Part shown: positions 3,505 to 18,268 of the stretch, piece by piece | Numbering within the stretch: the stretch's first letter is position 1 | Layout of the letters: each line of letters starts with the position of its first letter | From: Williamsia faeni | GTDB taxonomy: Bacteria; Actinomycetota; Actinomycetes; Mycobacteriales; Mycobacteriaceae | Length of the DNA stretch: 53,830 bases | Assembly: GCA_003202005.1 (NCBI GenBank) | Contig: QJJF01000016.1 | Location: forward strand, 1-53,830 | Direction of reading: 5' to 3' | Program-made: the position numbers and the translations under genes | The notes under the pieces: generated by a model | The model's database searches: none | Seen by the model: the letters and a program-made list of their open reading frames with translations, nothing else | What the model was told of the DNA's origin: nothing

Positions 3505-3624
3505 GCTTTCCGGAAGACCCGCTGCTAGGCATTTGCACAGCATCCGCCATCATTGTGGATATCGGCGCGCTAACATGTCGTGAGCCAGAGCGGCTGTCAT
3601 CCATCGATGCGGAGGTCGAACTCG

Positions 3625-4245
3625 ATGTCCACGCCCCGCAGACTCGGCGCACCGGACGCCAAGAATCGTGCGGTGCTGCTCGCTGCCGCCGAGCGTGTGA
3701 TGTTGGAGAACGGCTATGCCGCGGTGAGTTCGCGGCGGGTGGCCGACGAAGCCGGTCTCAAACCTCAGCTCGTCCACTACTACTTCCGCACCATGGACGA
3801 ATTGTTCCTGGAGTTGTTCCGGCGCCGGGCCGAGCAGGGCCTCGAGGTGCAGGCCTTGGCGCTCAAATCAGAGCAGCCGTTGTGGGCGCTGTGGGCTTTC
3901 AGCACAGATCCGGCGGGTGCGATTTTCACGATGGAGTTCATCGCGCTGTCGAACCATCGCAAAGAACTTCGTGCCGAGATCGTGCGGATCTCCGAACAGT
4001 TCCGCGTCGAGGCGAGCGCCGGTATCGAAGACGTCCTCCGGCGATACGGAGTCGATCTCGATCAGATGCCGGCCGTGGCGGCGATTGTATTGATGACCAG
4101 CATCTCGCGCGTTGTGGTCATGGAAGACACTCTCGGCGTCCGGGAAGGGCATGCCGAGATGATCAAGGTGGTCGAGGACTACCTACGCCAACTCGAGGGT
4201 GAACCCGGTCCCGAGCTGCTGGAGGCCCTGCAGCACCGTCGGTGA
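3625..4245 (+). CDS. TetR/AcrR family transcriptional regulator
   Basis: This is 206 aa from the ATG at 3625, preceded by GGAGG at 3611-3615; an upstream in-frame ATG lacks such a site. The N-terminal helix-turn-helix is seen in AVSSRRVADEAGLKPQLVHY followed by YFRTMDELFLELF, a typical TetR recognition helix with the Y-F anchor. The C-terminal ligand domain is not diagnostic. It is the only regulator in the ligase/crotonase/amidohydrolase cluster and probably controls it, with an acyl-CoA or related acid as possible ligand (inference). Candidate operators are at 1028-1044 and 2675-2690. Confidence 0.9.
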   Translation: MSTPRRLGAPDAKNRAVLLAAAERVMLENGYAAVSSRRVADEAGLKPQLVHYYFRTMDELFLELFRRRAEQGLEVQALALKSEQPLWALWAFSTDPAGAIFTMEFIALSNHRKELRAEIVRISEQFRVEASAGIEDVLRRYGVDLDQMPAVAAIVLMTSISRVVVMEDTLGVREGHAEMIKVVEDYLRQLEGEPGPELLEALQHRR

Positions 4246-4257
4246 CGGTGCAGCGGT

Positions 4258-4518
4258 TCAGGCGACTGCCTTGAGGCTGTCGTCGTTGACGAACACCAGG
4301 CTGCCGTCGTTCAGCAGAACGGCAAAGCGCTTCGGGCTGACCTGGAGGCCGTCACCGAGGTCGACGGTGGCCTCGGGAAGTACGCCGAAGTCCTCGACGA
4401 TGGTGCCCTCACGAGTGTTGTCGTCTGCGGTGACCTGGACCGCAGTTCCGACGCTGAATGCGTCAGATGCTGCAGGAGCATCCTTCTCGGCAGCCGATTG
4501 TTTATTTCGCATGCTCAC
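4258..4518 (-). CDS. Small conserved-type hypothetical protein
   Basis: This 86-aa frame starts at ATG 4518; an in-frame ATG at 4512 is an alternative. After a polar N-terminus the protein is rich in short beta-prone stretches (GTAVQVTADD, REGTIVEDFG, QVSPKRFAVLL, GSLVFVNDDSL). That looks like a small SH3/KOW-like beta barrel, but I recognise no family. It is convergent with the TetR gene, whose stop is 13 bases away. No signal peptide or membrane segment is seen. Function unknown. Confidence 0.65.
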   Translation of the reverse strand: MSMRNKQSAAEKDAPAASDAFSVGTAVQVTADDNTREGTIVEDFGVLPEATVDLGDGLQVSPKRFAVLLNDGSLVFVNDDSLKAVA

Positions 4519-4584
4519 ATTAGATCAGTAGATTGCCGCTTTTGGTACGCCGGAGTTGCTGAAGTGAATGTCCGGTATTGACGA

Positions 4585-4608
4585 GTATTCGAATACACAA
4601 CGTGTATT
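4585..4608. promoter_or_regulatory. Overlapping palindromes upstream of the kdp remnant
   Basis: GTATTCGAATAC (4585-4596) is a perfect 12-base palindrome. It overlaps a second inverted repeat, AATACAC-N3-GTGTATT (4592-4608). A TTGACG hexamer is at 4578-4583. The element sits in the 246-base gap between the small minus-strand gene and the kdpF frame and could be the old kdp promoter/operator. Binder unknown. Confidence 0.35.
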
Positions 4609-4764
4609 TGCTCTGCCGATCGTGTCGAGGTCGCAGGCGCAAAGATCTCGTATAGATCGCGCGAACCCGCGTATGAAGGCCATCAACGACGGGTCCGATG
4701 TGCTTGTTTGCGCCGCGTGCATATGCGCGTTGGTGTTGCGTGCCGTCGCAGCGAGATCTCGCAA

Positions 4765-4959
4765 ATGACCGCCGACGGAGTGATCAATGCGGTGCTGCTG
4801 ATCCTCGCCGCCGTTGTGGCGCGATATCTCTGTGCAGCCCTGGTGTTTCCTGAAAGGTTCGTAGAGGCGGGAGTTCCTCGTTGGCCGCAGAGCTTCAGAT
4901 CGGGTGAGACTCATTGCGCTGCTTGCCTGTTCGATCACTCGGCGGTCATCTCATCATGA
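4765..4959 (+). pseudogene. kdpF: kdpF, read-through/decayed remnant at the start of the kdp locus
   Basis: From ATG 4765 the first 32 residues form one hydrophobic helix ending YLCAALVFPERF. This closely matches the KdpF pattern (LFAALLFPEKF in M. tuberculosis, from memory), where the protein ends. KdpF is the tiny membrane subunit that stabilises the KdpFABC potassium-transporting ATPase. Here the frame does not stop after PERF. The sequence reads TTC GTA G, as if one extra base precedes the stop, and runs on for 32 unrelated residues. No kdpA or kdpB sequence follows. It is therefore a leftover of the operon head, 340 bases upstream of kdpD. Confidence 0.72.
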
Positions 4960-5001
4960 ACTCGATGTCGGTATGGATTCGGCAAGGTGTGGTAACTCCA
5001 G

Positions 5002-5094
5002 GTGCCCGGGGCAGCCCGGCTCTTGGGACAGCCGACCGTGAATGCGCTGGGTGTCAACATCGGCCTGGGGCTGACGGCTCCGGGCTGCGACTAA
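5002..5094 (+). pseudogene. kdpC: Probable kdpC 3' end remnant
   Basis: In one frame ending at TAA 5092-5094 the sequence reads LLGQPTVNALGVNIGLGL and a few more residues. This resembles the conserved KdpC C-terminus (LGxxxVNVLxLNLAL). An in-frame TAA lies just upstream of 5002, so only the last 30 or so codons remain. It ends 10 bases before kdpD, where kdpC normally sits. The match is short, so this call rests on motif plus position. Together with kdpF it implies that most of kdpF-kdpA-kdpB-kdpC was deleted. Confidence 0.5.
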
Positions 5095-5104
5095 GATCGC
5101 TGCA

Positions 5105-7639
5105 GTGACCGCCGGTGCAGAGGGCAGGGGACGACTCGAGGTATTCCTCGGTTGCGCACCCGGCGTGGGCAAGACCTACGAGATGTTGGCCCAGGCGCAC
5201 ACGATGCTGGCCGATGGGGTTGACGTTGTGGTCGGTGTGGTCGAATCCCACGGCCGATCGATCACGGCCGCCATGATCGACGGTCTCGAGGTCATCGACC
5301 GGGCCAGGGTCGACTACCGCGGAACCCTGTTGGACGAGATGGATCTCGATGCCGTCCTGACGCGCCGGCCGCAGGTGGTCCTGGTGGACGAACTGGCCCA
5401 CACCAATGCGGCGGGGTCACGAAATCCGAAGCGGTGGCAGGACATCGATGAACTCCGCGACGCGGGTATCGATGTGATGTCCACGATCAACATCCAGCAT
5501 CTGGAAAGCCTCAACGACGTTGTTCAGGAAATCACCGGAATCGTTCAGCGTGAAACGGTGCCGGACGATGTGGTGCGCTCTGCCGACGAGATCGAACTGG
5601 TGGACATCGCGCCGCAGGCTCTGCGCCAACGACTTTCGGCGGGCAAGGTCTATCCGGGAGACCGCGTGGGAGGTGCCCTCGCCAACTACTTCCGACAGGG
5701 AAACCTCACCGCGCTCCGTGAACTGGCTTTGCTGTGGCTGGCCGATCAGGTCGACGACAACCTCGCCGACTACCGCGCCGCCCACGAGATCACGGACACC
5801 TGGGAGGCCCGTGAACGAGTGGTGGTCGCGATCACCGGAGGCCCGGAATCGGCGACCCTCCTGCGACGGGCGAGCCGCATCGCATCACGATCGAGTGCCG
5901 AACTCGTTGTGGTTCATATTGTTCGCGATGACGGGTTGACCGATCCGGCGATGGTGGACCTGGCAAAGCTCACCGAACTGGCCAAGGGGTTCGGAGCCCA
6001 GATGCACTCCATCGTCGGCGACGACGTCCCTGCCACACTGCTCGAGTTCGCTCGTGGGGTCAACGCCACGCAGCTGGTCCTGGGCACCTCGAGGCGGTCC
6101 CGATGGCAGCGGATTCTGGACGAAGGTGTCGGCTCCGCCGTCGTGCAGCGGTCCGGCAAGATCGATGTCCACATGGTCACCCACGAGGAGACCAAGGCGC
6201 GGAACGTCCTCGACATCAGGAACACTCGGTTTCATCGCCCCCTGAGCTGGGTGTGTGCAGTGGTCGTCCCCGTGGTGGCGGCAGGCATTCTGATGGCGCT
6301 CGACCCGTGGCTGGGCATCGCCAGTCAGTCGGCACTGCTCTTTGTGGTTGTCCTCGCGGTGTCGATGCTCGGCGGGATCGGGCCGGCGGCGTTGTCGGCG
6401 ATCGTTTCGGGGCTGCTCCTGAATTTTCTCTTCACGTCGCCGCGGTACACCTTCACCATCAATGAGACCGACAATGCGATCACCATCATCGTGATGCTGG
6501 TGATCGCGATAGCCGTTGCAGTGCTGGTGGATTCGGCGACCGTACGACGCGTGCAGGCACAGCGGGCCGCCCGGGACGCGGAGCTGCTGGCGATCTTCGC
6601 AGGGGCAGTTCTCAGCGGTGAAGATATCGAAGGGTTGTTGCGGATCGTGCAGACGACATATGACCAGAGCGCGGTCTCGGTGGTTCGGATCGCGCACCGC
6701 GAGCCGAACGTCGTCGAGGGTTCGGTCGGGGACGATCCGCCTGCGGATGCCGAACATGCGGACACGGTCTGCGAGGTGCCCGGAGGTGACTTCGCGATGC
6801 TGTTGCGCGGACCCAAACTCGGTGGCCGCGATCGCCGGGTGCTGGTCGCCGTGGCAAACCAGGCCGCGGGTGTTGTCCAACGACGAAAGTTGGCCGCGCA
6901 AGCTGCCGAAGCGCGGGCACTGGCGGAAACCGATCAGTTGAGGCGGGCGCTGCTGTCTGCGGTCAGTCACGACCTGCGGACGCCGCTGGCCGCGGTGAAG
7001 GCATCGGTGTCGAGCCTGCGGGGAACCGATGTCGTGTTCTCGCCGCAGGACACCGCGGAGTTGCTGGCGACCATCGAAGAATCCACCGACCATCTGACCG
7101 CGCTGGTGGGTAACCTTCTCGATTCGTCACGGCTGGCCGCCGGGGTGGTGCGCCCGGACCTGCAGATGGTCTACCTGAATGAGGTCGTCAGTCGCGCGAC
7201 GGTGGGCATCGCGCGATTTGATCCGGTCGCCGCGGAACGCGTCGAGCTCGACATCGATCCGGTCCTCCTCTATGCCGATGCCGGGCTCCTCGAGCGGGTG
7301 CTCGCCAATCTCATCGACAACGCGCTTCGGCACAGCGGCGACTCGATGCCCGTGCAGGTGCGGGCGAGGCTGACCTCCGACGATCCTCCGCGGTGTTCCA
7401 TCGCGGTTGTCGATCATGGTCCCGGTGTACCGGTCGAGGTGCGGCCGAAGATGTTCACCGCGTTCCAGCGCCTGGGTGACGAAAACACCGTGGACGGCGT
7501 CGGTCTGGGGCTGTCGGTGGCGCAAGGATTCGTGCGGGCGATGAACGGGGTCATCACTCCGTCGGAGTCTCCCGGTGGTGGCCTGACGATGGCATTCGAT
7601 CTGCCGCTCGGCCCGCCGACGGGGGAACCCGATGCCTGA
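5105..7639 (+). CDS. kdpD: Sensor histidine kinase KdpD
   Basis: This 844-aa protein has a GTG start and the usual KdpD architecture. The N-terminal KdpD domain carries Walker A GCAPGVGKTY (16-25) and VLVDELAHT (92-100). A Usp-like domain spans about 235-365 and four transmembrane helices lie around 375-480. A GAF-like segment follows. The kinase core has the H-box SAVSHDLRTPLAAV (His about 622), the N-box NLIDNALRHS and the G-boxes DHGPGVP and GVGLGLS. KdpD normally senses potassium limitation or ionic stress and phosphorylates KdpE to induce kdpFABC. It overlaps kdpE by 8 bases. The oddity is that its target operon is missing just upstream, so it is intact but orphaned. Confidence 0.96.
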   Translation: MTAGAEGRGRLEVFLGCAPGVGKTYEMLAQAHTMLADGVDVVVGVVESHGRSITAAMIDGLEVIDRARVDYRGTLLDEMDLDAVLTRRPQVVLVDELAHTNAAGSRNPKRWQDIDELRDAGIDVMSTINIQHLESLNDVVQEITGIVQRETVPDDVVRSADEIELVDIAPQALRQRLSAGKVYPGDRVGGALANYFRQGNLTALRELALLWLADQVDDNLADYRAAHEITDTWEARERVVVAITGGPESATLLRRASRIASRSSAELVVVHIVRDDGLTDPAMVDLAKLTELAKGFGAQMHSIVGDDVPATLLEFARGVNATQLVLGTSRRSRWQRILDEGVGSAVVQRSGKIDVHMVTHEETKARNVLDIRNTRFHRPLSWVCAVVVPVVAAGILMALDPWLGIASQSALLFVVVLAVSMLGGIGPAALSAIVSGLLLNFLFTSPRYTFTINETDNAITIIVMLVIAIAVAVLVDSATVRRVQAQRAARDAELLAIFAGAVLSGEDIEGLLRIVQTTYDQSAVSVVRIAHREPNVVEGSVGDDPPADAEHADTVCEVPGGDFAMLLRGPKLGGRDRRVLVAVANQAAGVVQRRKLAAQAAEARALAETDQLRRALLSAVSHDLRTPLAAVKASVSSLRGTDVVFSPQDTAELLATIEESTDHLTALVGNLLDSSRLAAGVVRPDLQMVYLNEVVSRATVGIARFDPVAAERVELDIDPVLLYADAGLLERVLANLIDNALRHSGDSMPVQVRARLTSDDPPRCSIAVVDHGPGVPVEVRPKMFTAFQRLGDENTVDGVGLGLSVAQGFVRAMNGVITPSESPGGGLTMAFDLPLGPPTGEPDA

Positions 7640-8321
7640 AAAAATTCGGGTCCTCGTAGTCGATGACGAGCCCCAGATCCTGCGCGCGTTGCGGATCAAC
7701 CTCAACGCGCGGGGCTTCGATGTGACGACGGCGTCGAGCGGGGCGGGTGCGCTGACGGCGGCGGGCAAGACGAACCCGCATGTCATCGTTCTCGACCTCG
7801 GGCTACCTGACATCGACGGATTCACTGTGCTGGCCGGACTGCGTGGGTGGACCAATGTTCCGGTGATCGTGCTCTCGGCCCGAGTCGATTCGTCGGACAA
7901 AGTGCAGGCACTCGACGCCGGTGCCGACGATTACGTGACGAAACCATTCGGGATGGAAGAGTTCTTGGCCAGGCTGCGAGCTGCGGTGCGACGCGGGAGC
8001 GCGAGCACCGACGAGGCACTTCCGGTGGTTCAGACCGATGCCTTCACCGTGGACCTCGGGGCCAAGCAGGTGATCCGCGACGGTGAACCGGTGCATCTGA
8101 CTCCCACCGAGTGGGGCGTTCTCGAGATGCTCGTGCGGCACGAAGGAAAACTCGTCAGCCAGCGCGACATCCTCAACCACGTGTGGGGACCGACGTACGG
8201 CGCTCAGTCGAACTATCTGCGCGTGTATCTGGCGAGCCTGAGGCGCAAGCTCGAACCTGACCCAACCCGTCCACGCCATCTCCTGACCGAGGCCGGTATG
8301 GGATATCGCTTCGTCGGATAG
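7632..8321 (+). CDS. kdpE: Response regulator KdpE (OmpR/PhoB family)
   Basis: This 229-aa protein has a receiver domain with the acidic pocket VVDDEP (9-14), phospho-acceptor Asp near 55 in VIVLDLGLPD, and the conserved Lys in YVTKPFG. A winged-helix domain follows (TPTEWGVLEMLVRHEGKLVS, then SNYLRVYLASLRRKLE), typical of OmpR/PhoB DNA binding. Its ATG overlaps the kdpD 3' end, so translation is coupled. It would normally activate kdpFABC. With that operon lost here, it may act on other promoters or be on the way to decay, although the reading frame is intact. Confidence 0.95.
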   Translation: MPEKIRVLVVDDEPQILRALRINLNARGFDVTTASSGAGALTAAGKTNPHVIVLDLGLPDIDGFTVLAGLRGWTNVPVIVLSARVDSSDKVQALDAGADDYVTKPFGMEEFLARLRAAVRRGSASTDEALPVVQTDAFTVDLGAKQVIRDGEPVHLTPTEWGVLEMLVRHEGKLVSQRDILNHVWGPTYGAQSNYLRVYLASLRRKLEPDPTRPRHLLTEAGMGYRFVG

Positions 8322-8753
8322 GTTTCATTACCGACCGAGTTATTTGTTGGTTGCAATTCCTGGTTGTTAATTCCTTTACCTGCCCAAAAGGGCAGGTGGG
8401 CATTTGTCGACAATTGTTCGTTGTTTCCATTGGGAAACACGGATGAAACTTTGCGAGTGCTCGCTTTTAATTTAAGGACTCGGTGTCCGTTGCTGGTTCT
8501 GCAAAGCAACGCGCTTCACCTGTTCGTATTACACCGCAGGTCAGCGGAGTGTCCGTCGAACCTTGCGCGCCCGGTACAGCCGGTTTGCTGAAATTAATTC
8601 CCTCGTGGGAGTTTTACTCCGAACAGCCGATTTCATATATGTTTATGAAGATTCGTACCCGGGTATGAGTTGTTGTGCGGCGATCGTCTTCACTTTGTGA
8701 CTAGGATCAAAACTGCTCTAGTGGAAGGTGGGCGAGGATGGCGGCCAGTCGGC
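8322..8753. other. AT-richer intergenic region after kdpE
   Basis: This stretch of about 430 bases has no recognisable gene. It is visibly richer in A/T than its surroundings. It contains a perfect hairpin with 8-base arms ACCTGCCC (8378-8385) and GGGCAGGT (8390-8397) around AAAA, which may end the kdpDE transcript. The promoter of the following hypothetical gene should lie in its right part. Confidence 0.5.
8378..8397. terminator. Short perfect hairpin downstream of kdpE
   Basis: Arms ACCTGCCC and GGGCAGGT are separated by an AAAA loop, 57 bases after the kdpE stop. There is no clear T-run, so termination is possible but not certain. Confidence 0.4.
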
Positions 8754-9296
8754 ATGATGAACCTCAACTTGTTATTGAACGTGGGGGCAAATTGTCACAG
8801 AGAGTGGATGGGCGCAGTGCAGCAATCAGGAGCTGAAACGACGACGTTGCTCGCCACTCTTCGGCGCTGGCAGGACGCCCAATGTACGGACGGCGTCTAC
8901 TGGTGCGCGGCATGGCTGTACTCCTGTGGAGATCCCATCGCCAATGACCTCCTCGATGACTTGGCGCGGGACGAGAGTCTGGAAGTCGACCACATCGAAA
9001 CGGTCCTACCCCGATTGGCGCGCTGCCGATTCCAGGATCTTGTCGAGTGGTGCCTGCACACCGCCACCCGCCTGGACGGATCGCTGACGACGGATCCGGG
9101 CCGGTGGTTGCCCGACCTGAACCGCAGTCTCGACGACGGTGTCCTGACGTTGGCCGTGGCGCTACACCGCGTGGTACTCGCCGACATGTGGTTGATGACG
9201 TGTTCGGACACAACTCTGAGCGACAACGCCGCGGTGATCCGGGCGTACCAGGTCAGGCGGCAATCGGTGCTGGCAGCTGCCGCCCAGCGGAACTGA
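8754..9296 (+). CDS. Hypothetical protein
   Basis: The protein is about 180 aa from the ATG pair at 8754/8757. The open frame extends upstream to a TTG at 8670 and a GTG at 8721, and no start has a convincing ribosome site. It is predicted soluble and mostly helical, rich in Trp, Cys and Asp (WCAAWLYSCGDP, CLHTATRLDGS, HRVVLADMWLMTCSD). I recognise no domain, signal peptide or membrane helix. It is flanked by kdpE and a PPOX-family gene, neither of which suggests a role. Codon use is typical for the window, which supports a real gene. Confidence 0.6.
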   Translation: MMNLNLLLNVGANCHREWMGAVQQSGAETTTLLATLRRWQDAQCTDGVYWCAAWLYSCGDPIANDLLDDLARDESLEVDHIETVLPRLARCRFQDLVEWCLHTATRLDGSLTTDPGRWLPDLNRSLDDGVLTLAVALHRVVLADMWLMTCSDTTLSDNAAVIRAYQVRRQSVLAAAAQRN

Positions 9297-9321
9297 TCTG
9301 ACCCCGGACCGACCCCGGCAT

Positions 9322-9341
9322 CAAACAAACTGGTTTGTTCG
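9322..9341. promoter_or_regulatory. TetR-type operator upstream of the PPOX-family gene
   Basis: AACAAAC-TG-GTTTGTT (9324-9339) is a perfect palindrome of 7-base arms. The 20 bases 9322-9341 match 10474-10493, in front of the TetR gene, at 19 of 20 positions. That makes a shared operator very likely. It lies 22 bases before the ATG at 9363. Confidence 0.75.
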
Positions 9342-9362
9342 CTATCTGCTAGCGTGGTCGCC

Positions 9363-9875
9363 ATGCCCGAATCAGCAGACGAATCTACCGTCGACCAGAA
9401 CGTTCAGAGTGCCGAGTTGCGCCCACAGAAACGCGGTCTTCGCATCGCTATGACACCTGCGGAGCGCGACGAGTTCTTGGCCGCACAACGTACCTGCCGA
9501 GTTGCCACCACCGGTGTGGACGGTGCGCCGCATCTGTCGGCGCTCTGGTTCGTCTGGGACGGAGATGTGTTGTGGCTCAACTCGATTGTGAAGAGTCAGC
9601 GCGGGACCGATGTGTCCCGCGATGCTCGGGTATCGGTACTGATCGACGCCGGCGAGGGTTTCACGGACCTGGCCGGCGTCGAGATCAGAGGGCGTGCCGA
9701 GTGGGTTGGCGAGGTGCCGCGGACAGGCGAGCCCAATGACGAACTGGTGGCTCCCGAAACGGCGTTCGGCAACAAGTACGCGGGCGGTCGGTTTGGTTAC
9801 GACGGCCGGCACGCGTGGCTGAAGGTTGTCCCGGAGAAGATCGTCAGTTGGGATTTCAGCAAGAACAAGCGCTGA
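9363..9875 (+). CDS. Pyridoxamine 5'-phosphate oxidase / F420-binding split-barrel family protein
   Basis: The protein is 170 aa. ATG 9363 is chosen over GTG 9354, as it lies just after the operator. After a polar N-terminus, the split-barrel flavin-binding core is seen in TCRVATTGVDGAPHLSALWF (near residues 45-65) followed by VSRDARVSVLIDAG and GVEIRGRAEW. These fit PPOX-class or F420H2-dependent reductases, which are common in actinobacteria. The TetR at 9897-10454 is convergent, and its own promoter carries the same operator, so it probably represses this gene. Cofactor (FMN, F420 or heme) and substrate are not readable from sequence. Confidence 0.85.
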   Translation: MPESADESTVDQNVQSAELRPQKRGLRIAMTPAERDEFLAAQRTCRVATTGVDGAPHLSALWFVWDGDVLWLNSIVKSQRGTDVSRDARVSVLIDAGEGFTDLAGVEIRGRAEWVGEVPRTGEPNDELVAPETAFGNKYAGGRFGYDGRHAWLKVVPEKIVSWDFSKNKR

Positions 9876-9896
9876 GGTCCGGGGTACGCGAGTGAT

Positions 9897-10454
9897 TCAG
9901 GCCGCGGGACCGATGATGCGGCGGACTGCTTCCTCGACATCGGCCCTGCGGTCACCGGCGGTCCTACCTCGCACGGGCAGTGTTGCCGCCCAGAAGGTCG
10001 CCACTGAATGGATCAGCTGGAGTAACTCACGCGGATTCCATCGCGTATCTACTGTGCCGGCGGCCTGCGCGCGCCGGACGGCCTCACCCTTTTCCTGTTC
10101 GAGCAGGACCACGGCGTCGACATGTGCTGTTGCGCACTGTTCTTCGAGCTGCATCCAGGCCAGCATGCGGACCTGATCGGGGTGTTCGAGAAAGTGCTCG
10201 TACAGCCGGCCCGCGTAGGCGACGAGGTCATCGTTGTCGATCGGGATCGACGACGTGCCTTCCCGGACACCTTCCCGAATGGCCTCATCGAACAGGACTT
10301 CTTTGCTGCCGAAGTACGCGTAAAGGCGTTCCTTGCTCGCTCCTGCACTTTTCGCGATGCGGTCGATACGGGCGCCATTGATTCCGTACTGCGCAAACTC
10401 TGCCCGCGCTGCTTCCAGGACACGAGCCCTCGCATCTTCCGCTGATCGCCGCAT
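9897..10454 (-). CDS. TetR/AcrR family regulator, likely autoregulated
   Basis: This 185-aa protein has an N-terminal helix-turn-helix, GARIDRIAKSAGASKERLYA followed by YFGSKEVLFDEAI, typical of TetR proteins. The C-terminal half (LLQLIHSVATFWAATLPV) resembles TetR_C ligand domains. Twenty bases upstream of its start lies a 20-base sequence (10474-10493) that recurs at 9322-9341 before the PPOX-family gene. The expected circuit is repression of itself and of that gene, relieved by an unknown ligand. The two genes are convergent, 21 bases apart. Confidence 0.9.
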   Translation of the reverse strand: MRRSAEDARARVLEAARAEFAQYGINGARIDRIAKSAGASKERLYAYFGSKEVLFDEAIREGVREGTSSIPIDNDDLVAYAGRLYEHFLEHPDQVRMLAWMQLEEQCATAHVDAVVLLEQEKGEAVRRAQAAGTVDTRWNPRELLQLIHSVATFWAATLPVRGRTAGDRRADVEEAVRRIIGPAA

Positions 10455-10473
10455 TCAGGAAGTGTACCGCTCG

Positions 10474-10493
10474 CAAACGAACTGGTTTGTTCG
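10474..10493. promoter_or_regulatory. TetR autoregulatory operator
   Basis: This site reads CAAACGAACTGGTTTGTTCG and differs at one base from 9322-9341. It sits just upstream of the minus-strand TetR start at 10454, where bound repressor would block its own promoter. Confidence 0.72.
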
Positions 10494-10524
10494 CGTGGCT
10501 CAACCTGCATCAGGTGAATCGAAG

Positions 10525-10558
10525 CCGGTCGGTGGCTGCAGTAGCAGCCACCGACCGG
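10525..10558 (-). terminator. Strong hairpin terminator downstream of the amidohydrolase
   Basis: Perfect 15-base arms CCGGTCGGTGGCTGC (10525-10539) and GCAGCCACCGACCGG (10544-10558) enclose a 4-base loop. It lies about 45 bases past the stop of the minus-strand amidohydrolase. Confidence 0.65.
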
Positions 10559-10603
10559 TGCGATCTGGCGCCGGTGGTGAACCGGCGAGTATTCGGGCGG
10601 CGA

Positions 10604-11872
10604 TCAGGCCTGCCCGGTCACCAGATGTTTCTGCGCGTAGAGCTTGGCCCACTCGGCGCGCGGACGAATTGAGACATCGACGTCGGTTGCGGTGGCCCGC
10701 AATGCGCCGACGGTCGCGTCCTCTCGCTTGGTCTTCGCGAACGGATCCCACCCGAAGTGGCGGCACGAGTTCTCGAAGGTGATCTTGTTGATGTCGCTGT
10801 CGCTGGCGCCCACAGCGGTCAGCTCGCCGTACACGCTCTCGGCGGCATCGGGGAAGAAGCAGTCCGAATGCGGGAAGTCGCATTCCCAAGCGATGATGTC
10901 GATGCCGATCTCGTGCCGCAACTTCAGGGCGGTCGGATCGGTGACGTAACACGCGAGGGAATGCTCCTTGAATACTTCACTCGGCAGCTTGCCGCCAAAA
11001 TCGCGCTGCAGCCAACGCTGATTGGTGTAGTGCCGGTCGCAGCGGTCGAGGTAGAACGGAATCCAGCCGATACCGCCCTCGGAGAACGCGAACTTGAGGT
11101 CGGGGAACGAACGCATCGCCGGACCCCAGAGCAGGTCTTGGGCGGCGATGGCGGAGATCTGGGTGGCCAGGACGATCAAGTTGTCGACCGGAGCGTCGGG
11201 TGCCATCGAGATCGCCCCGAATCCCGATCCGATGTGGAGGCACATGACCACGTTCTCGTCCGAGAGCGTCTGGAACACCGGGCCCCAGTAGTCGATGTCG
11301 TGATAGCTGGGGAGACCTTCGAGGTGCGGGATCTCGGGCATGGTGACGGCATGGCAGCCTTTGGCCGCCACGCGCTTGATCTCGGCGACCATGGCCTCCG
11401 GACTCCAGGTGGGCAAAAGAGCCAGCGGCAGGAACCGGTCGGGGTACGCGGCGCACCACTCGTCGATGTGCCAGTCGTTGTATGCCCGGACCATCACGAT
11501 CGTCACTTCGGCCTGATGCTGATTGAGGTGGCGCGCGGAAAAGCCGGTGAAGGTGGGGAAGCACATCGAAGCGAGGATGCCGTTGCGGCTCATGTCGCGG
11601 ACGCGCTCGTGCACGTCGTACACCCCGGGGCGCATCTCGGCGAACCGCGCGGGATCGCGACCCCACTCCTCGGCCGGCCACGAAACGACGGCGTTGAGCC
11701 CGCTGACACCGGTGGGTTTGCCCTGATAGACCCACTGATCGACGCCCTTGTCGGTCACGATCACCCGGGGCGCCTCATCGACGTATTTGGCCGGGACATG
11801 ATTCAGGAACATGTCGGGCGGCTCGACAACGTGGTCGTCGATGCTGACCAGGATCAGGTCTTCGACATTCAT
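10604..11872 (-). CDS. Amidohydrolase (amidohydrolase_2 / ACMSD-like)
   Basis: The protein is 422 aa from ATG 11872, which has AGGAG about 8 bases upstream; the open frame reaches 11986 but that part overlaps the AraC promoter. The opening VSIDDHVVEPPDMF has the metal-binding D-x-H pattern. Later come CLHIGSGFG, FAFSEGGIGWIPFYLDR and WECDFPHSD, the usual order in ACMSD-like TIM-barrel enzymes. Family members decarboxylate or hydrolyse aromatic or lactone-type substrates. The gene is divergent from an AraC regulator (61-base gap), which is its likely activator, and is closed by a strong hairpin at 10525-10558. It is related to the partial gene at 1-1007 but not adjacent. Confidence 0.88.
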   Translation of the reverse strand: MNVEDLILVSIDDHVVEPPDMFLNHVPAKYVDEAPRVIVTDKGVDQWVYQGKPTGVSGLNAVVSWPAEEWGRDPARFAEMRPGVYDVHERVRDMSRNGILASMCFPTFTGFSARHLNQHQAEVTIVMVRAYNDWHIDEWCAAYPDRFLPLALLPTWSPEAMVAEIKRVAAKGCHAVTMPEIPHLEGLPSYHDIDYWGPVFQTLSDENVVMCLHIGSGFGAISMAPDAPVDNLIVLATQISAIAAQDLLWGPAMRSFPDLKFAFSEGGIGWIPFYLDRCDRHYTNQRWLQRDFGGKLPSEVFKEHSLACYVTDPTALKLRHEIGIDIIAWECDFPHSDCFFPDAAESVYGELTAVGASDSDINKITFENSCRHFGWDPFAKTKREDATVGALRATATDVDVSIRPRAEWAKLYAQKHLVTGQA

Positions 11873-11933
11873 TAAAAACTCCTCGAAGTGCGGTAGGTCA
11901 CGTGGGCTCTCACTATGTGTACCCTTCATAACC

Positions 11934-12758
11934 ATGACCGACTCCACACATTCGGCCATGCCTCGTGCAGAAGCGGCCAATGTCAAGCGCCTACGCCGTA
12001 GCGCCGTGGTGAGCGCCGGCAGCCACCTCTACGAGGGGGAACGGCTGGTGACCGGATGGCACCATCACGACGAGCATCAGATGGAGTACGCGGTCGGTGG
12101 CGTGGTGGAGGTCGAGACCGCGTCTGCGCACTACCTTCTTCCTCCCCAACGGGCCGTGTGGATCCCGGCCGGGCTGCGACACCAGGCCACGATGAACTCG
12201 AATGTGCAGTCGATCGCGGTGATGTTCGATCCGGAACTCGTGCCGTATGAGGGTCGGAGTGCGGCGATACTCAGCGTCTCGCCATTGATCCGGGAGATGA
12301 TCGTTTATGCGCAGCGTTGGCCGATCAACCGGCTGAGGAGCGACTCCGAAGCCGATAGCTTCTTCGCCACCCTCGGCAACCTGCTGCTCGAGGCGATCGC
12401 AAGCGGTGGTGCAACACTCAGTCTGCCCACCTCGGATAATTCGGTGATCGCGGACGCCATGGCGTTCACCAAGGAAAACCTGCAGTCGGTCGGGATCTCG
12501 GATGTCGCCCGGGCGGTGTCGGTGTCGGAGCGCACCCTGCGCCGCATGTTCCACGAGGAGGTCGGATCGTCGTGGCGTACCTATCTCCTGCGGGCGCGCA
12601 TGTTGAAAGCGATGGCGCTGCTGGCTTCTCCGGATCAATCAGTCCAGGAAACGGCTCGCGTAGTGGGTTTCCAAAACGCCAGTTCGTTCGCCAGGGCATT
12701 CACCGACTACTGGGGGCAGACACCGTCGTCATGCCGTCAAAGCAGCCCAGGTCTGTGA
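11934..12758 (+). CDS. AraC family transcriptional regulator
   Basis: The protein is 274 aa from ATG 11934. The N-terminal part is a cupin-like sensor domain: WHHHDEHQMEYAVGG resembles the H-x-H sugar/acid-binding strand, followed by LLPPQRAVWIPAGLRHQ. The C-terminal double helix-turn-helix is ISDVARAVSVSERTLRRMFH and ARVVGFQNASSFARAFTDYW. This layout matches AraC proteins with an AraC_binding cupin. It is divergent from the amidohydrolase at 11872 and probably regulates it. A diverged copy of its DNA-binding part lies at 13871-14142, immediately after a tRNA-Pro fragment. Confidence 0.92.
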   Translation: MTDSTHSAMPRAEAANVKRLRRSAVVSAGSHLYEGERLVTGWHHHDEHQMEYAVGGVVEVETASAHYLLPPQRAVWIPAGLRHQATMNSNVQSIAVMFDPELVPYEGRSAAILSVSPLIREMIVYAQRWPINRLRSDSEADSFFATLGNLLLEAIASGGATLSLPTSDNSVIADAMAFTKENLQSVGISDVARAVSVSERTLRRMFHEEVGSSWRTYLLRARMLKAMALLASPDQSVQETARVVGFQNASSFARAFTDYWGQTPSSCRQSSPGL

Positions 12759-12774
12759 CCGGAGCGCGCGGTGA

Positions 12775-12840
12775 CCTACGAAACGAGGAAATCCCGGTCC
12801 GCATTTCTGCGAACCGGGATCTCACTGCTTGTGTCTCAAC
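12775..12840. repeat. tRNA-Pro downstream repeat, copy A (terminator part only)
   Basis: These 66 bases match 18298-18363 with a few substitutions and start the same way as the 13727 copy. They contain the hairpin TCCCGGTCCGCA/TGCGAACCGGGA (12792-12819) and end at TCTCAAC, before the tRNA part of the other copies. It sits between the convergent AraC and SDR genes and can serve both as terminator. It is the shortest of three copies. Confidence 0.8.
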
Positions 12841-12843
12841 TGC

Positions 12844-13647
12844 TCACAGCGTCGCGAAGACCCCGCCGTCGACCGCGAGGTCGGTGCCCGTGATGAACCC
12901 CGACTCCGGCCCGACCAGGAACGCCACGGCTGCGGCAATGTCTTCGGGCGTGCCGAACCGTCCGGTGCCGCTGAGCTCCATGCGCTCACGCATGCTGTCG
13001 CCCCCTTTGCTCTCCAGCTCGAGAAGTGCCATCGGGGTGATGATGACACCGGGGCTGATGGAGTTGACCCGCGCGCCGCGCCGACCCCAGGTAATGGATG
13101 CGTCCCGGACGCGCAGTTGGTTGCCTCGCTTCGAGACGCCGTAGGCGACAACCGTCGCGGGTATGTCCGCGAGTGCCGGGATGGCGAGAAGGTCCTCGGT
13201 CGGTGTCGATCGCAGCAGCGTCTCCAGCTCCGGCGCCACCGGGATACGGTGGCCGGCCATCGAAGCGATGAACACACCGGCACCGCCCGGCGCGATGACC
13301 TCGCCGAAGGCATCGCTGACCAGCGCCGCGCCGAGTAGGTTGACTTTCAGGATTGTCTCGATGTCGGCCTGCGACGGCGAGAGTCCGGCGGTGTGAACGA
13401 CGGCGGTCACCTGCCCGAGATCTGCGGCGGTCTTCGCCAGCGTGCGTACCGATTCTGCATCCGATATGTCGACGGCGTGCGGTACGACGACATGGCCGAC
13501 TTGGCGCAGCGACTCGGCCACCGGGTCGAGACGATTCGAATCGTGATCGGCGATGACGATCGTGGAACCGGGGCCCAGGCGCCGGGCAATGGCGAGTCCC
13601 ATCCCCCCGGTGCCGGTGATGACGGTGACACGGGGATCTGAACGCAT
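12844..13647 (-). CDS. Short-chain dehydrogenase/reductase (SDR)
   Basis: This 267-aa protein has an N-terminal Rossmann motif TGTGGMG (14-20), close to the classical TGxxxGxG. It has DISDAESV for cofactor contact, VVHTAGLS in place of NNAG, and the active-site pair Tyr-Lys in YGVSK (near 167-171). The C-terminus GTDLAVDGGV is typical of classical SDRs. It should oxidise or reduce an alcohol/ketone with NAD(P)(H). It lies alone between repeat copies A and B, and its stop is 4 bases from copy A. An Asp at the end of strand 2 (VIADHD) favours NAD(H). Confidence 0.9.
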   Translation of the reverse strand: MRSDPRVTVITGTGGMGLAIARRLGPGSTIVIADHDSNRLDPVAESLRQVGHVVVPHAVDISDAESVRTLAKTAADLGQVTAVVHTAGLSPSQADIETILKVNLLGAALVSDAFGEVIAPGGAGVFIASMAGHRIPVAPELETLLRSTPTEDLLAIPALADIPATVVAYGVSKRGNQLRVRDASITWGRRGARVNSISPGVIITPMALLELESKGGDSMRERMELSGTGRFGTPEDIAAAVAFLVGPESGFITGTDLAVDGGVFATL

Positions 13648-13726
13648 AGAGGGATATTCGCGCCCGTCCGCTCGTCTGTCAATTCCCCAAGAGTCACCTC
13701 GTCGGCCGCTTATCGAGGCAACCCCG

Positions 13727-13870
13727 GAAACGAGGAAACCCCGGTTCGCATTTCTGCGGACCGGGGTCTCACTGCTTGTGTCTCAACCAACACATCTTGC
13801 AAGACCGATCGAAATCGGTCTTTCTGTCGGGGTGTCGGGATTCGAACCCACGACCTCTTCGTCTCGAACG
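13727..13870. repeat. tRNA-Pro 3'-half direct repeat, copy B (left boundary of island)
   Basis: The 144 bases align without gaps to 18303-18446, with about three mismatches, at an offset of exactly 4,576 bases. They contain the terminator hairpin (13739-13766), the second hairpin AAGACCGAT/ATCGGTCTT and, at 13827-13870, the 3' half of a tRNA-Pro gene from the anticodon loop to the discriminator base. The fragment's anticodon position is altered and it lacks a 5' half, so it is not a functional tRNA. A break inside the anticodon loop is the classic outcome of tyrosine-recombinase integration. Confidence 0.85.
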
Positions 13871-14142
13871 GCTCCTTCGAGGAGGTCAGTCAAGCGGTCT
13901 GTGTCTCCGAGCGCACGCTCCGACGCCTCTTTCATCAAGAAACTGGCTCGTCGTGGCGTACGTATCTCTTACACGCACGCATGCTGCGGGCCATGGCACT
14001 CCTGGCGTCACCCGAGCAGTCGGTTCAAGAGACGTCCCGAGTTGTCGGCTTCGAGAACGTCAGTTCGTTTGCCAGGGCATTTGCGGACTACAGCGGTCAC
14101 CCCCGTCGGCCTACCGACGCCGCGGCGCGGAGGTTGCCCTGA
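13871..14142 (+). pseudogene. AraC family regulator, C-terminal fragment
   Basis: From 13879 one frame reads EEVSQAVCVSERTLRRLFHQ, then GSSWRTYLLHARML and SRVVGFENVSSFARAFADY, ending at TGA 14140-14142. This is the DNA-binding part of an AraC protein, clearly paralogous (about three quarters identical) to residues 180-265 of the regulator at 11934-12758. There is no start and no sensor domain; the frame begins right at the tRNA-fragment junction (13870/13871). It was truncated by the event that created the island boundary. Confidence 0.82.
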
Positions 14143-14187
14143 CATTCTCATGTGTCGAGTGCCGACACTGTTACTCGGGCGCACAGC

Positions 14188-14216
14188 AAAGACGGGCGCC
14201 ACAGGCCCCCGTCTTT
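14188..14216. terminator. Hairpin terminator downstream of the small repeat-peptide gene
   Basis: Arms AAAGACGGG (14188-14196) and CCCGTCTTT (14208-14216) can end transcription in either direction. They lie between the AraC fragment and the stop of the minus-strand gene at 14267. Confidence 0.6.
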
Positions 14217-14266
14217 GCCGTCGCGGATCGTGGCGGCCACCACGGGCGCGGATCTATGTGGTTTTG

Positions 14267-14473
14267 TCAGTCGTCGGTCTCTTCCTCGACACCCAGGGTT
14301 TCTGCTCCCGGAGTGGCGGGGGCCAACACAGCATCGTCAGTGCTCGCGGTGCCGTCAGCTACGTCAGACTGTGCGTCCGGTGAGCCCAAGGTTTCAGCTC
14401 CAGGTGTTGCCGACGTGCGTACCTCGCTGTCGGCTTCTTCAGTTCGGACTGCTGGTGGTTCTTGGGAAGCCAT
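14267..14473 (-). CDS. Small acidic protein with repeated nonapeptide ATPGAETLG
   Basis: The protein is 68 aa from ATG 14473, with AGAGG 7 bases upstream. The frame is open further upstream, but the ribosome site supports this start. It is highly acidic (about 17 Asp/Glu) and lacks Cys, Lys and aromatic residues. The nonapeptide ATPGAETLG occurs twice, encoded at 14384-14410 and 14291-14317 (near residues 22-30 and 53-61). The two copies use different synonymous codons at 6 of 9 positions. That supports real coding and selection on the peptide. It could be an intrinsically disordered linker-type protein or a multi-core precursor peptide, but no modification enzyme is adjacent. I recognise no family. 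Confidence 0.6.
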   Translation of the reverse strand: MASQEPPAVRTEEADSEVRTSATPGAETLGSPDAQSDVADGTASTDDAVLAPATPGAETLGVEEETDD

Positions 14474-15114
14474 CGTGTACCTCTCATGATGCTGGTTGGG
14501 CAGTTCGAGACTGCTTCTCCGTCCACAGAAGGATGCGGACTGAATTGCGATACCCAGAATTGGTAGTGTCGAAACTCCCGAGTCTCTGTGGTCGAGATGC
14601 GCCGCCACCCACGGCAATTCCCGATCCCTTGCCGGTTGCGCGAGATTCTGTGGAGCTGTCAAACCTGTACCCGTCCAGTCGATCTCGAACTTCGCAGCAT
14701 TGTAAATCCGTTCGCAAGTACCTCGCCGAGTTGTCTTCCTGCGCGGCAATCGGTAAGCGCGGGCCAGTGGCGTTGGATTGGCACAGCGGGAGCCGTTCGG
14801 CGCTTGTTGATCGTGATCTGTCGGTCCAACCTCAACCAGTCGGTGCACGGGCAACGCGAGTTCGGTTATGTGCAAACATGACACGGCATCACCCGAAGTT
14901 GAAGTGGCCGGACATGCCGGAGTTCCTGTTGTCGCCGAGGGTGACAGGAGCGATGCGCAGTTACGATTCGGTCTGTCTGTCAACCCCTATGGGGTCAACG
15001 ATCTCGTTGGTATCGTCCATCCAAGGCGCTCGGCGATGTCCACATCGTGTGTCGAGATGTGGACACCGCTTGAGTCGATGATGCGTCGCTCTCCTCGGAA
15101 GAGTTGGCAGGAGC
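14474..15114. other. 641-base region without a recognisable gene, inside the island
   Basis: Several open frames exist on both strands but none has a family motif, a good ribosome site or window-like codon use. The stretch is somewhat less GC-rich than the flanks. It must contain the promoter of the small acidic gene at its left end. Confidence 0.5.
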
Positions 15115-16212
15115 CTAGATTCGTGGCGGCGGAGCTCCCTTGACGTCAAGGCCGGCGAGTTGGCTGCTCGGATAGGGTCGCCATTGCCGGATCAGGGTTC
15201 CGCCGAATCCATTTGTGAGTGTTTTCTTGCGGCCGTCCTTGTAGGTGAACGTGCCGACGATTTCTTCCCAGTCCAACAGGATCGTTGGGGAGTCCGGGAC
15301 GTCGCGGATGCCGCTGGCGGGGAAGGCGCTGACGGCAGTCGCGCCGATCTCCAAGACGCCGGCCTCAGTCTGCGCGGTCATTGTGTAGCGGGTGGGGATG
15401 AAGACGCCGCTGGATTCGAAGTATGCCCAGTCGTGGTGGGTAATTTCGAAGTCGGCTTCCGGAATGTATTGCTGCTCCTCGGTGAGATAGAGCGACATGT
15501 CCTTGTGCTGGCTGATCTTCATCTCGTCGAGCGCGCCGGACATCTCGTCGAAGTGGAACCACAGCCAGTCATGCCAGCCACCGACCTCGGCCGGGCAGGT
15601 GTCCACGGCGTAGTAGCGTTCACGCACGGCTGCGCCCTTGAATGTGATTGTCCGGTCCTCGAGCGAGAGCGTGCCTTCGACGGTTCCCGGCCAGAAGTAG
15701 CCGTAGGCAATGCAGTGCGGAGTGTAGGTCTGCGCCGTTTCCTTGCCGTACCAGGTTGGGAATCCGGTGCCGGTGTGGACCCATTCCCCAGAAATTCCGG
15801 AGGCCTCGTCGGAGACGGTGTAGTGCCACGTTTTGTCGCCGGGCCGGCATTCGATATTGAAGTCGCCCATGTTCACCCACACGTGGTCGTCGGCGATCTT
15901 GGAAGTGAGGGCTCCGCGCGGGTGGTAATGCCAGTCTGTCGATGTAGCCGGCGGGAAGTCGGCCACCTTATATACCGACCCCGGCGGCGAAACGACCTGT
16001 CCTTTCTCGGATCGCACCGACATCGCCCAGAAGTCGACATTGCCCCATGCCTCACGCAAAGACATGGCGCCGATGTTGAACCAATAGTGCTTACCGTCGT
16101 CGCCGATGACGCTGGCAACGAGCGCCCAGTCCAATTGAGCTGTGTCGCGGGACTCTTCGGGAAATCCGTGGGCCTCTACTTCGAGGGTCACCGCAGGGTC
16201 GCTTACAAGCAT
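15115..16212 (-). CDS. CrtC/AttH-like (hydroxyneurosporene synthase-like) lipocalin-fold protein
   Basis: The protein is 365 aa from ATG 16212, which has AGGAGA a few bases upstream; the frame stays open to 17127 by chance over the next gene. It is rich in Trp, Tyr and paired acidic/aromatic strands (HYWFNIGAMSLREAWGNVDF, YGYFWPGTVEGTLSL, GGWHDWLWFHFDEMSG). That is the style of the CrtC/AttH double-lipocalin group, which includes carotenoid hydratases and many uncharacterised actinobacterial proteins. There is no signal peptide. It follows the DapB-like reductase by 20 bases, so the two form an operon, divergent from a TetR. A role in converting a hydrophobic terpenoid or steroid-like compound is plausible but unproven. 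Confidence 0.6.
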   Translation of the reverse strand: MLVSDPAVTLEVEAHGFPEESRDTAQLDWALVASVIGDDGKHYWFNIGAMSLREAWGNVDFWAMSVRSEKGQVVSPPGSVYKVADFPPATSTDWHYHPRGALTSKIADDHVWVNMGDFNIECRPGDKTWHYTVSDEASGISGEWVHTGTGFPTWYGKETAQTYTPHCIAYGYFWPGTVEGTLSLEDRTITFKGAAVRERYYAVDTCPAEVGGWHDWLWFHFDEMSGALDEMKISQHKDMSLYLTEEQQYIPEADFEITHHDWAYFESSGVFIPTRYTMTAQTEAGVLEIGATAVSAFPASGIRDVPDSPTILLDWEEIVGTFTYKDGRKKTLTNGFGGTLIRQWRPYPSSQLAGLDVKGAPPPRI

Positions 16213-16232
16213 ATCGTTGTATCTCCTTGGAA

Positions 16233-17297: not shown

Positions 17298-17318
17298 CCA
17301 TGGACTCCTTCGCATCTG

Positions 17319-17362
17319 TTAGCCGATCGGCTTAAAAGTGACCTTAGCCGTTCGGCTTAAAA
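17319..17362. promoter_or_regulatory. Tandem TetR operators, TTAGCCG(A/T)TCGGCTTAAAA x2
   Basis: Two 19-base copies at 17319-17337 and 17344-17362 differ at one central base and are spaced 25 bases apart. Each holds the near-perfect palindrome AGCCGATCGGCT or AGCCGTTCGGCT. They fill the divergent gap between the DapB-like gene (start 17297) and the TetR gene (start 17392). Binding would block both promoters. Confidence 0.85.
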
Positions 17363-17391
17363 TGTCAATGGCTGTCCGCTAGCATTGCAGA

Positions 17392-17982: not shown

Positions 17983-18099
17983 GGATTTGTGAGGCCCGCG
18001 CAAATGCATCAACTCACCGCCGTGTCATGGTGTGAATGACCGGACCTCACGGCTACCTGGACGCAGGACGTTCCGAGTAGGGACGGTCGTCGGTGATCC

Positions 18100-18268
18100 C
18101 TACCGTTTGACGAGCGGATGTGGAACTTTGATGCTGCGCGCGCGCAGCCATTCGTCGAGTGCTTTGGCCTGCGAATCCAGCCGTAGTGTCGAGGTGGCGC
18201 CGGTCCCGAGCAATCCTCGGAGGACGAAGTTGATCGCGCCGATCGGCGTGAAAATTCTCGGGCATTAA
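18100..18268 (-). pseudogene. C-terminal remnant, AtuA/DUF1446-like
   Basis: On the minus strand one frame ends INFVLRGLLGTGATSTLRLD and then ALDEWLRARSIKVPHPLVKR before TAG at 18100-18102. It has the look of the C-terminal end of acyclic terpene utilisation AtuA/DUF1446 proteins (NFVL..LLGGG...LR.D..GK). The similarity stops near 18268, about 30 bases before the direct repeat, with no start codon. I regard it as a gene cut off when the island formed. The family is from memory. Confidence 0.45.

Follow-up and report, generated by a model that had tools for sequence, protein, structure and literature searches.

In Escherichia coli, residues R193, R200 and T215 of the response regulator KdpE have been assigned roles in DNA contact (PMC3264566), and another study, which defines the Walker A and Walker B motifs of KdpD, describes that they are used together with the TGES motif of KdpB in the inhibition of KdpB (PMC11018627). 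The latter study also offers a precedent in the strain LB2003, where kdpDE acts on a pump that is produced separately. For paralogous two-component systems in general, the usual argument is that they face pressure for specificity (PMC9765234). In the window analyzed here (the whole stretch of 53,830 nucleotides, contig C16 of the Williamsia faeni genome) lies a kdp locus that, together with an operon on another contig (C11), forms a pair in which two diverged KdpDE copies appear to have their partner faces and their operator in common, one of them without a pump of its own. The C16 locus probably constitutes the remains of an anciently diverged second kdpFABCDE operon, whose pump has eroded and whose autoregulated KdpDE would still serve the C11 pump in trans.

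Taking an intact kdpA, kdpB and kdpC on site as the mark of a functional pump, none of the three was found at the C16 locus, which holds fragments only (Table 1). The kdpF frame, ending in ...YLCAALVFPERF, has its stop displaced by one base, as a sequence-only reading of this DNA had noticed. It matches kdpF of C11 and of seven of the eight Williamsia relatives in blastn searches (it was missed in G008), and reaches a Pfam KdpF E value of 0.0043 with 17.4 bits, under the curated cut-off of 21.2. The kdpC-like tail proposed in the same reading is likewise confirmed by its 71-73% identity to the 3' ends of kdpC in C11 and in clade 1 (E 4e-9 to 3e-11). The approximately 140 bases separating these remnants had been regarded as unrelated sequence, an interpretation of 4866-5011 that is ruled out by the fragment matches and the chain score, as most of this stretch is kdp sequence as well, from the beginning of kdpA, from within kdpB and from the beginning of kdpC. 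The kdpA remnant is 68-74% identical to clade 1 and C11, its single matches being weak (E 0.03-1.5), and the kdpB mid-gene remnant displays 75-80% identity to C11, G002, G003 and G007 (blastn, E 4e-6 to 2e-4), 68% to G001 over a longer stretch (E 5e-4) and weak matches (E 1.5) to the four clade-2 genomes. An extra match to the middle of kdpC at 4994-5019 was weak and is not claimed. Against shuffles, the chain for 4866-5011 attains z values of 9.2-10.1 with G003, C11 and G001; with clade 2 (G004) the value is 3.0, and 0.8 for 4905-4955.

Table 1. Features of the kdp locus on C16, with positions in the window.
Feature	Position	Strand	Basis or remark
Retained kdp promoter block	4636..4689	+	Aligned to promoters of four clade-1 relatives and the intact C11 operon
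KdpE-box candidate AAAGATCTCGTATAGAT	4641..4657	+	Two 6-bp half-sites, 5 bp spacing; genome scan
Small membrane ORF, C-terminal remnant	4724..4768	+	Alignment and translations; intact ORF precedes kdpF in complete operons
kdpF remnant, stop out of frame	4765..4860	+	Frame, Pfam, blastn
kdpA remnant, first 12 codons, start codon lost	4869..4904	+	Collinear with the beginning of kdpA in clade 1 and in C11
kdpB mid-gene remnant	4904..4936	+	VRLIALLACSI vs [VI]KLIALL[VI]CLI; blastn
Possible late-kdpB remnant	4938..4951	+	Shares 14 identical bp with kdpB of C11; E 1.5, alone not significant
kdpC start remnant (MNSMSVWIRQGVV)	4956..4994	+	E 0.004 to 1.5 vs C11 and clade 1
kdpC tail remnant	5017..5094	+	Stop TAA 5092-5094
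kdpD, 844 aa, intact	5105..7639	+	Pfam KdpD 314.8 bits; Usp, DUF4118, HisKA, HATPase
kdpE, 229 aa, intact	7632..8321	+	Response_reg and Trans_reg_C; best PDB match KdpE 4kny, E 1.8e-66

The kdpF, kdpA, kdpB and kdpC fragments stand in operon order. For an order control, the reference was divided into blocks whose order was randomized 20 times. With G003 and G001, 4866-5011 scored above the best of these shuffles, whereas with C11 its score was only level with the best one, as was that of 4905-4955, taken by itself, in all three; because of this outcome, the operon order of the fragments is less strongly supported than their kdp content. Upstream of them, the promoter block is 79% and 81% identical to the promoters of G001 and G002, respectively (blastn, E 9.6e-6 and 2.8e-6), and both the N-terminus of the small ORF and the leader are absent between promoter and kdpF, a loss that may bear on the stability of the transcript and on kdpD translation. 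As a separate observation, 54 out of 59 kdp loci from actinobacteria have an overlapping frame for a membrane microprotein, apparently unnamed, in front of kdpF. At C16, the leader and the pump genes, about 4.7 kb in all, have shrunk to some 460 bp, apparently through four or more deletions and additional small shifts.

The loss of kdpFABC supposed in the sequence-only reading does not extend to the genome, since a genome-wide search found an intact kdpFABCDE operon on C11, with KdpA (E 2.3e-210), KdpC (E 9.4e-54), a second KdpD, and open frames for kdpB and kdpE. The KdpB of this operon has TGES, and family searches for KdpA and KdpC in the same genome gave matches on C11 only. The description of KdpDE as an orphan sensor consequently applies to the locus, where kdpDE lies beside a kdpFABC scar, and not to the genome as a whole.

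The C16 kdpD and kdpE genes are full-length and overlapping, as had been claimed, with no frameshift or stop in about 3.2 kb. KdpD carries the N-terminal domain PF02702 (314.8 bits versus a cut-off of 26.1) with Walker A (G-X5-GKT) and a D-E Walker B, followed by Usp, the DUF4118 membrane part, HisKA with its H-box and HATPase; its score against the NCBIfam equivalog PRK10490 is 503.5 bits, under the cut-off of 1123 of a model that is possibly just narrow. KdpE combines a receiver with an OmpR-type winged helix and is nearest to KdpE, the equivalog PRK10529 being its best NCBIfam match, yet with 254.6 bits against a cut-off of 325. Between the C16 and C11 copies, 69/72 residues of the DHp region and 108/117 of the receiver are identical, as are 97/147 of the KdpD ATP-binding domain and 68/92 of the KdpE DNA-binding domain.

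The candidate KdpE box was searched for in this genome and in eight relatives with a 17-bp pattern allowing up to 2 mismatches, a pattern derived from the very sites that the scan recovers. Exactly two sites were retrieved in the W. faeni genome, one in each of the C16 and C11 kdp promoters, and a reversed-pattern control gave 0 matches; at 2 mismatches the pattern has six non-kdp matches across five of the eight relatives, so its specificity is imperfect. By alignment, the clade-2 box agrees with the footprinted KdpE site of Mycobacterium smegmatis at 16 of 22 bases. Taken alone, the C16 and C11 boxes gave no significant match to that site, and the best 22-bp match of the C16 promoter to it falls outside the box and is reached by 12 of 300 shuffles. 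Because the direct match failed, the link of the box to the M. smegmatis site goes only through the clade-2 alignment.

Regarding its origin, the C16 copy groups with clade 1, though only at bootstrap 81-88 and SH-aLRT 78-86, and forcing it together with the C11 copy yields a p-AU of 0.0215, in a test chosen after the first trees had been inspected. A recent in-genome duplication of the C11 operon is not supported, as in these trees the two copies are not each other's closest relatives; the second copy would come either from an old duplication or from transfer. Neither kdp locus was found syntenic in the relatives: the genes flanking C16 and C11 have no match at E <=1e-10 in the 19-kb kdp loci of the eight relatives, except for a paralogous response regulator, and the C16 locus does not occupy the genus position defined by the kdp flanking genes of those relatives. 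In this genome the clade-2 kdp site is empty and the flanks of the clade-1 site give minor matches only. In both G007 and G003, relatives of the TetR gene (at 3580) and of the amidohydrolase gene (at 10604) share a contig, at a distance of 38-40 kb from each other, which indicates that the region has been rearranged.

According to the explanation that we favor, the pump genes of the second operon would have eroded stepwise through several deletions, with the kdp promoter, its KdpE box and the kdpDE pair persisting intact. The retained KdpD-KdpE would then sense low K+ and activate both its own promoter and that of the C11 kdpFABCDE operon, and the N-domain of C16 KdpD may additionally act on C11 KdpB. 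The pair would amount to additional dosage of one and the same sensor, without rewiring. We infer here the expression, cross-phosphorylation, cross-activation and selective benefit of C16 KdpDE. More tentatively, it could be proposed that selection dropped the paralogous pump and kept the promoter and the uninsulated KdpDE as a sensor-only locus that tunes both the transcription of the C11 pump and its post-translational inhibition. It is on the whole unlikely that the locus is a dying remnant, in which the pump was lost fairly recently and kdpDE stays open for lack of time, devoid of any selected function. In agreement with that possibility, the differences of the remnants to G001 by codon position (13/13/29, compared with 14/7/29 for C11 and G001) are mostly at third positions, which puts most of the divergence before the decay and makes the decay young relative to divergence. 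Furthermore, a search of the eight relatives from the same genus gave no second KdpD: seven have a single full match, and in G005 the one match is divided between two frames. Pairwise dN/dS values of C16 pairs are low (0.10-0.15 for KdpD and 0.05-0.09 for KdpE, with synonymous sites near saturation) and would mostly reflect the period preceding the loss of the pump. The recent deletion suggested by the sequence-only reading is thus sustained in part, by the same codon pattern, but the pieces imply at least three gaps plus the deletion of the leader. Lack of time, however, does not readily account for kdpDE being undamaged next to such a reduced leader and pump, nor for the promoter box being likewise kept. 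Changes at genus-invariant residues are in excess in the pump remnants (9/52) and not in KdpDE (24/725; Fisher p 1.5e-4), and in a control against the eight relatives over matching pump segments C11 deviates at 5/57 positions and C16 at 13/57.

The other two possibilities raised in the sequence-only reading fare worse. The redirection of an orphan KdpDE to non-kdp targets would fit with a pair freed from its own pump, with the divergence between its KdpE DNA-binding domain and the C11 one (24/92 positions), and with pumpless orphan kdpD genes that may exist elsewhere (no KdpA match in four of ten genomes with a detached kdpD, assembly completeness not being given). Nonetheless, we regard such rewiring as improbable. 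The C16 DNA-binding domain is nearer to the kdp-linked KdpE of G007 (81/92) than the C11 domain is (72/92), arguing for no drift from kdp duty, and the presumed equivalents of E. coli R193, R200 and T215 in the recognition helix and wing are kept in the alignment to 4kny, under an assumed numbering offset of 2 (227-aa chain versus 225-aa native protein). Besides, the only box sites of this genome at up to 2 mismatches are those of the two kdp promoters, in a scan that weaker sites would escape. Even in a draft genome of 44 contigs, it is extremely improbable that kdpA and kdpB were collapsed or dropped by the assembly between 4860 and 5002: the scar pieces are 68-78%, not about 100%, identical to C11 and hence are not copies of it, several joins occur in operon order, otherwise invariant residues are changed, and the scar is internal to a 53.8 kb contig, whose end is about 4.7 kb away, in a genome estimated to be 99.99% complete with 0.31% contamination.

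The C16 locus shows that pump loss need not entail sensor loss, so that kdpD counts are a poor proxy for the Kdp pump. It reflects mostly ordinary gene decay, and the sensor left behind may now work for the C11 pump. With two diverged KdpDE copies, one of them deprived of its pump, the C16/C11 pair offers a natural experiment on whether a surplus sensor is retained for dosage or merely decaying. A detached kdpD is not rare: among 80 kdpD loci from actinobacteria, 10 lack any intact kdpA, kdpB or kdpC in the 10 kb upstream; kdpE adjoins kdpD in eight of these ten, and KdpA is found elsewhere in six of the ten genomes. Unlike C16, these loci do not display a comparable multi-gene scar: in L109 (Streptomyces sp. 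MspMP-M5) a part of kdpA, 63-66 aa long, remains some 2.4 kb upstream, and tblastn at E up to 0.01 detected no kdpA, kdpB or kdpC fragments at any of the nine others. In the literature library that was searched, exact phrases for orphan kdpDE and kdp pseudogenes gave no match. Like the canonical KdpDE of E. coli and M. smegmatis, the C16 pair has the full domain set, from Walker A/B and H-box to receiver and winged helix, its overlapping genes lie 3' of kdpC, and its box matches the 6-5-6 direct-repeat layout of the E. coli KdpE site (PMC3264566); unlike them, its own kdpFABC is in fragments, and the only intact pump found is unlinked, in a paralogous operon. Two diverged kdp loci per genome have also been described for Staphylococcus aureus, with KdpD2 in SCCmec II strains, and for Synechocystis 6714 (PMC4686210, PMC4060947), the functionality of the second S. 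aureus system being called not clear by its authors. Those second loci are described with a transporter, whereas that of C16 has kept its promoter and sensors only.

Contrary to the sequence-only reading, which held that kdpFABC had been lost, whole-genome analysis of the Williamsia faeni assembly (5.52 Mb, 44 contigs, estimated completeness 99.99%) located kdpF, kdpA, kdpB and kdpC, followed by a paralogous kdpDE, on another contig, C11. In this stretch, kdpA, kdpB, kdpC, kdpD and kdpE are open frames and kdpF stands ahead of kdpA. The single KdpA match of the genome lies there (C11:101064-102707, E 2.3e-210), as does the single KdpC match (E 9.4e-54), and the KdpD domain has two matches, one on C11 and one in the window. 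What precedes the window kdpDE is, almost certainly, a decayed second kdp operon (Table), whose pieces were identified against the operons of C11 and of eight Williamsia relatives and stand in operon order. These relatives form clade 1 (G001, G002, G003, G007) and clade 2 (G004, G005, G006, G008).

Table. Remnants of the second kdp operon in the window (piece, coordinates, strand, remark)
Promoter block	4636-4689	+	alignment to operon promoters
End of small ORF (C-terminal remnant) ahead of kdpF	4724-4768	+	
kdpF remnant	4765-4860	+	stop out of frame by one base
kdpA start, first 12 codons	4869-4904	+	weak alone, E 0.03-1.5
Mid-kdpB piece	4904-4936	+	
Late-kdpB piece, possible	4938-4951	+	weak
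kdpC start	4956-4994	+	weak alone, E 0.004-1.5 in C11 and clade 1
kdpC tail	5017-5094	+	

Comparison with these operons bore out the two remnants noticed earlier, the kdpF frame that lost its stop by a one-base shift and the kdpC tail; in the former, invariant residues are changed, one being now an arginine within the membrane segment. The bases between both remnants are not unrelated sequence, as had been proposed, but hold a kdpA start, a kdpB piece and a kdpC start. This was evaluated for 4866-5011 by an alignment allowing jumps, with 100 dinucleotide shuffles per reference and unrelated window sequence as control. Scores of 45, 49 and 51 were obtained against G003, C11 and G001, respectively. 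The shuffles averaged 21-22, with top scores of 28-32 (z 9.2-10.1), and the unrelated sequence scored 22; the clade-2 reference G004 gave 29 (z 3.0). Shuffling the reference blocks 20 times yielded maxima of 44, 49 and 47 in the same order of references. Therefore, the kdp content of this segment is strongly supported and the operon order of its pieces moderately so, some of the pieces being weak singly but not when taken together. The set of pieces kept implies a leader deletion plus at least three losses within kdpA-kdpC rather than a single clean deletion.

The sensor genes, which the earlier reading had called full-length, are intact, with full Pfam domain sets in KdpD (KdpD, Usp, DUF4118, HisKA and HATPase) and KdpE (receiver and winged helix). 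At genus-invariant residues, judged on C11 and seven relatives for KdpD (the split G005 gene was left out) and on C11 and eight relatives for KdpE, the window proteins deviate at 22/563 and 2/162 positions (24/725 jointly), versus 9 of 52 invariant positions in the pump remnants (Fisher p 1.5e-4; invariance judged here on C11 and all eight relatives, excluding start codons). In a control employing invariants of the relatives only, C11 deviated at 5/57 positions in the pump segments, 35/598 in KdpD and 15/177 in KdpE, and the window at 13/57, 30/598 and 5/177. Therefore, within one locus the pump remnants have been released from constraint and the sensors have not. In pairs that include a window protein, dN/dS is low (KdpD 0.10-0.15, KdpE 0.05-0.09) and like that of intact copies, with synonymous sites near saturation; most of the time behind these values predates pump loss, as 29 of the 55 differences between the remnants and G001 are still at third codon positions. 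Judged by sequence, the window KdpDE is live-looking. In G005:C5 (locus L122), kdpD is split in two overlapping frames and the adjoining 1205-aa gene is split too, base-calling errors in the assembly being one explanation. The KdpD proteins of G008 and G004 share 98% identity.

A candidate KdpE operator, AAAGATYTCGTAWAGAT, is found in the aligned promoters and consists of two 6-bp half-sites spaced by 5 bp, the layout reported for the E. coli KdpE site (PMC3264566). The nine Williamsia genomes were scanned for it with up to two mismatches, using the reversed pattern as control. In W. faeni exactly two matches appeared, at the kdp promoters of C11 and of the window; since the pattern was built from kdp promoters, the informative part is that this genome has no other match. 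One box is present at kdp in 4/4 clade-1 genomes (0-1 mismatch), and none at kdp in clade 2 within two mismatches. Six matches away from kdp, all with two mismatches, occur in five relatives (two in G003, one each in G001, G005, G007 and G008) and count against the specificity of the box; the reversed pattern gave zero matches in all nine genomes. Compared with the footprinted 22-bp KdpE site of M. smegmatis (PMC5401905), the aligned clade-2 box agrees at 16/22 bases, which 0-1 of 300 shuffles reach, and the window, C11 and clade-1 boxes show no match of their own.

The window KdpDE probably still functions in trans, to judge from the features it shares with the C11 system. On the partner faces the two copies are identical at 69/72 residues of the DHp region and 108/117 of the receiver, against 97/147 in the ATP-binding domain and 68/92 in the KdpE DNA-binding domain; to the latter domain of the kdp-linked G007 protein, the window copy is identical at 81/92 and the C11 copy at 72/92. 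Both KdpE copies keep the equivalents of E. coli R193, R200 and T215, assuming a numbering offset of 2. Window KdpD also keeps the G-X5-GKT and D-E motifs and C11 KdpB contains TGES, the parts by means of which E. coli KdpD is reported to inhibit KdpB (PMC11018627). The adenine-coordinating tryptophan described there is replaced by tyrosine in 12/12 aligned KdpD rows. According to the same source, a separately produced pump was phosphorylated in an E. coli strain lacking kdpFABC and expressing kdpDE, which is a precedent for such action.

The small ORF whose C-terminal remnant opens the decayed coding region is conserved ahead of kdpF elsewhere. An ORF of ~27-30 aa (start codons uncertain) with a single membrane helix ends in a 4-nt overlap on the kdpF start in 54/59 actinobacterial loci with readable kdpF (among them L035, L048 and L104; L037, with no kdpF recognised, was left out). 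At L073 it lies 52 nt away, and L079, counted as lacking it, has a similar ORF further upstream. The consensus of its last 27 codons in 55 loci is MADLAYVVLTIAVFAVLALVVRGVERL. Differences at codon positions 1/2/3 (679/355/1288 in 187 close pairs, which are not independent) show a coding substitution pattern. Four examples were searched against NCBIfam, where no model matched, and against Pfam, where none reached a cut-off; the ORF is possibly an unrecognised Kdp-associated microprotein. The 120-bp 5' leader reported before kdpF in M. smegmatis (PMC5401905) could have room for it. The record title of locus L038 (NZ_JNYV01000001.1, Kitasatospora arboriphila NRRL B-24581) looks misassigned.

The second copy may have arisen by old duplication or by transfer. 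The window kdpDE is grouped with clade 1 with C11 outside (bootstrap 81-88, SH-aLRT 78-86), and holding both W. faeni copies together is disfavoured (p-AU 0.0215, in a test chosen after the first trees had been seen). An rpoB tree without outgroup resolves three lineages, namely W. faeni and the two clades. Within Williamsia the kdp operon seems to change place, because nine genomes hold it at four different positions (clade 1, clade 2, C11 and the window contig C16); in W. faeni the site that it occupies in clade 2, the W. muralis group, is empty (C2:118719-118795). Several rearrangement breakpoints surround the scar (window 3580-18350). Relatives of the TetR gene (3580) and the amidohydrolase gene (10604) share one contig in both G007 and G003, where 38-40 kb separate them, and another G007 contig matches the window from ~18.3 kb onward.

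Detached kdpD genes are not restricted to this genome. A survey took in 80 kdpD loci, all from named genomes; at 20 of them one or more of KdpA, KdpB and KdpC had no match. Ten of the 20 have 10 kb of sequence upstream of kdpD and no intact pump gene in the locus, and the remaining ten are situated at or close to a contig end, with no more than 2.4 kb of sequence ahead of kdpD. kdpE adjoins kdpD at 8/10 detached loci, and KdpA was found elsewhere in 6/10 of their genomes, with no match in the other four, for which assembly completeness is not given. An apparent parallel to the window scar is provided by Streptomyces sp. MspMP-M5 (L109), where a kdpA fragment of 63-66 aa (7379-7573) precedes a detached kdpD by ~2.4 kb and two full KdpA matches exist elsewhere in the genome. 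Two kdp operons in a single genome have been reported in S. aureus and Synechocystis (PMC4686210, PMC4060947). Therefore, since detached kdpD loci and double kdp operons exist elsewhere, the kind is already known, and the new detail is how finely the scar has been preserved in a genome that also has a paralogous, intact pump.
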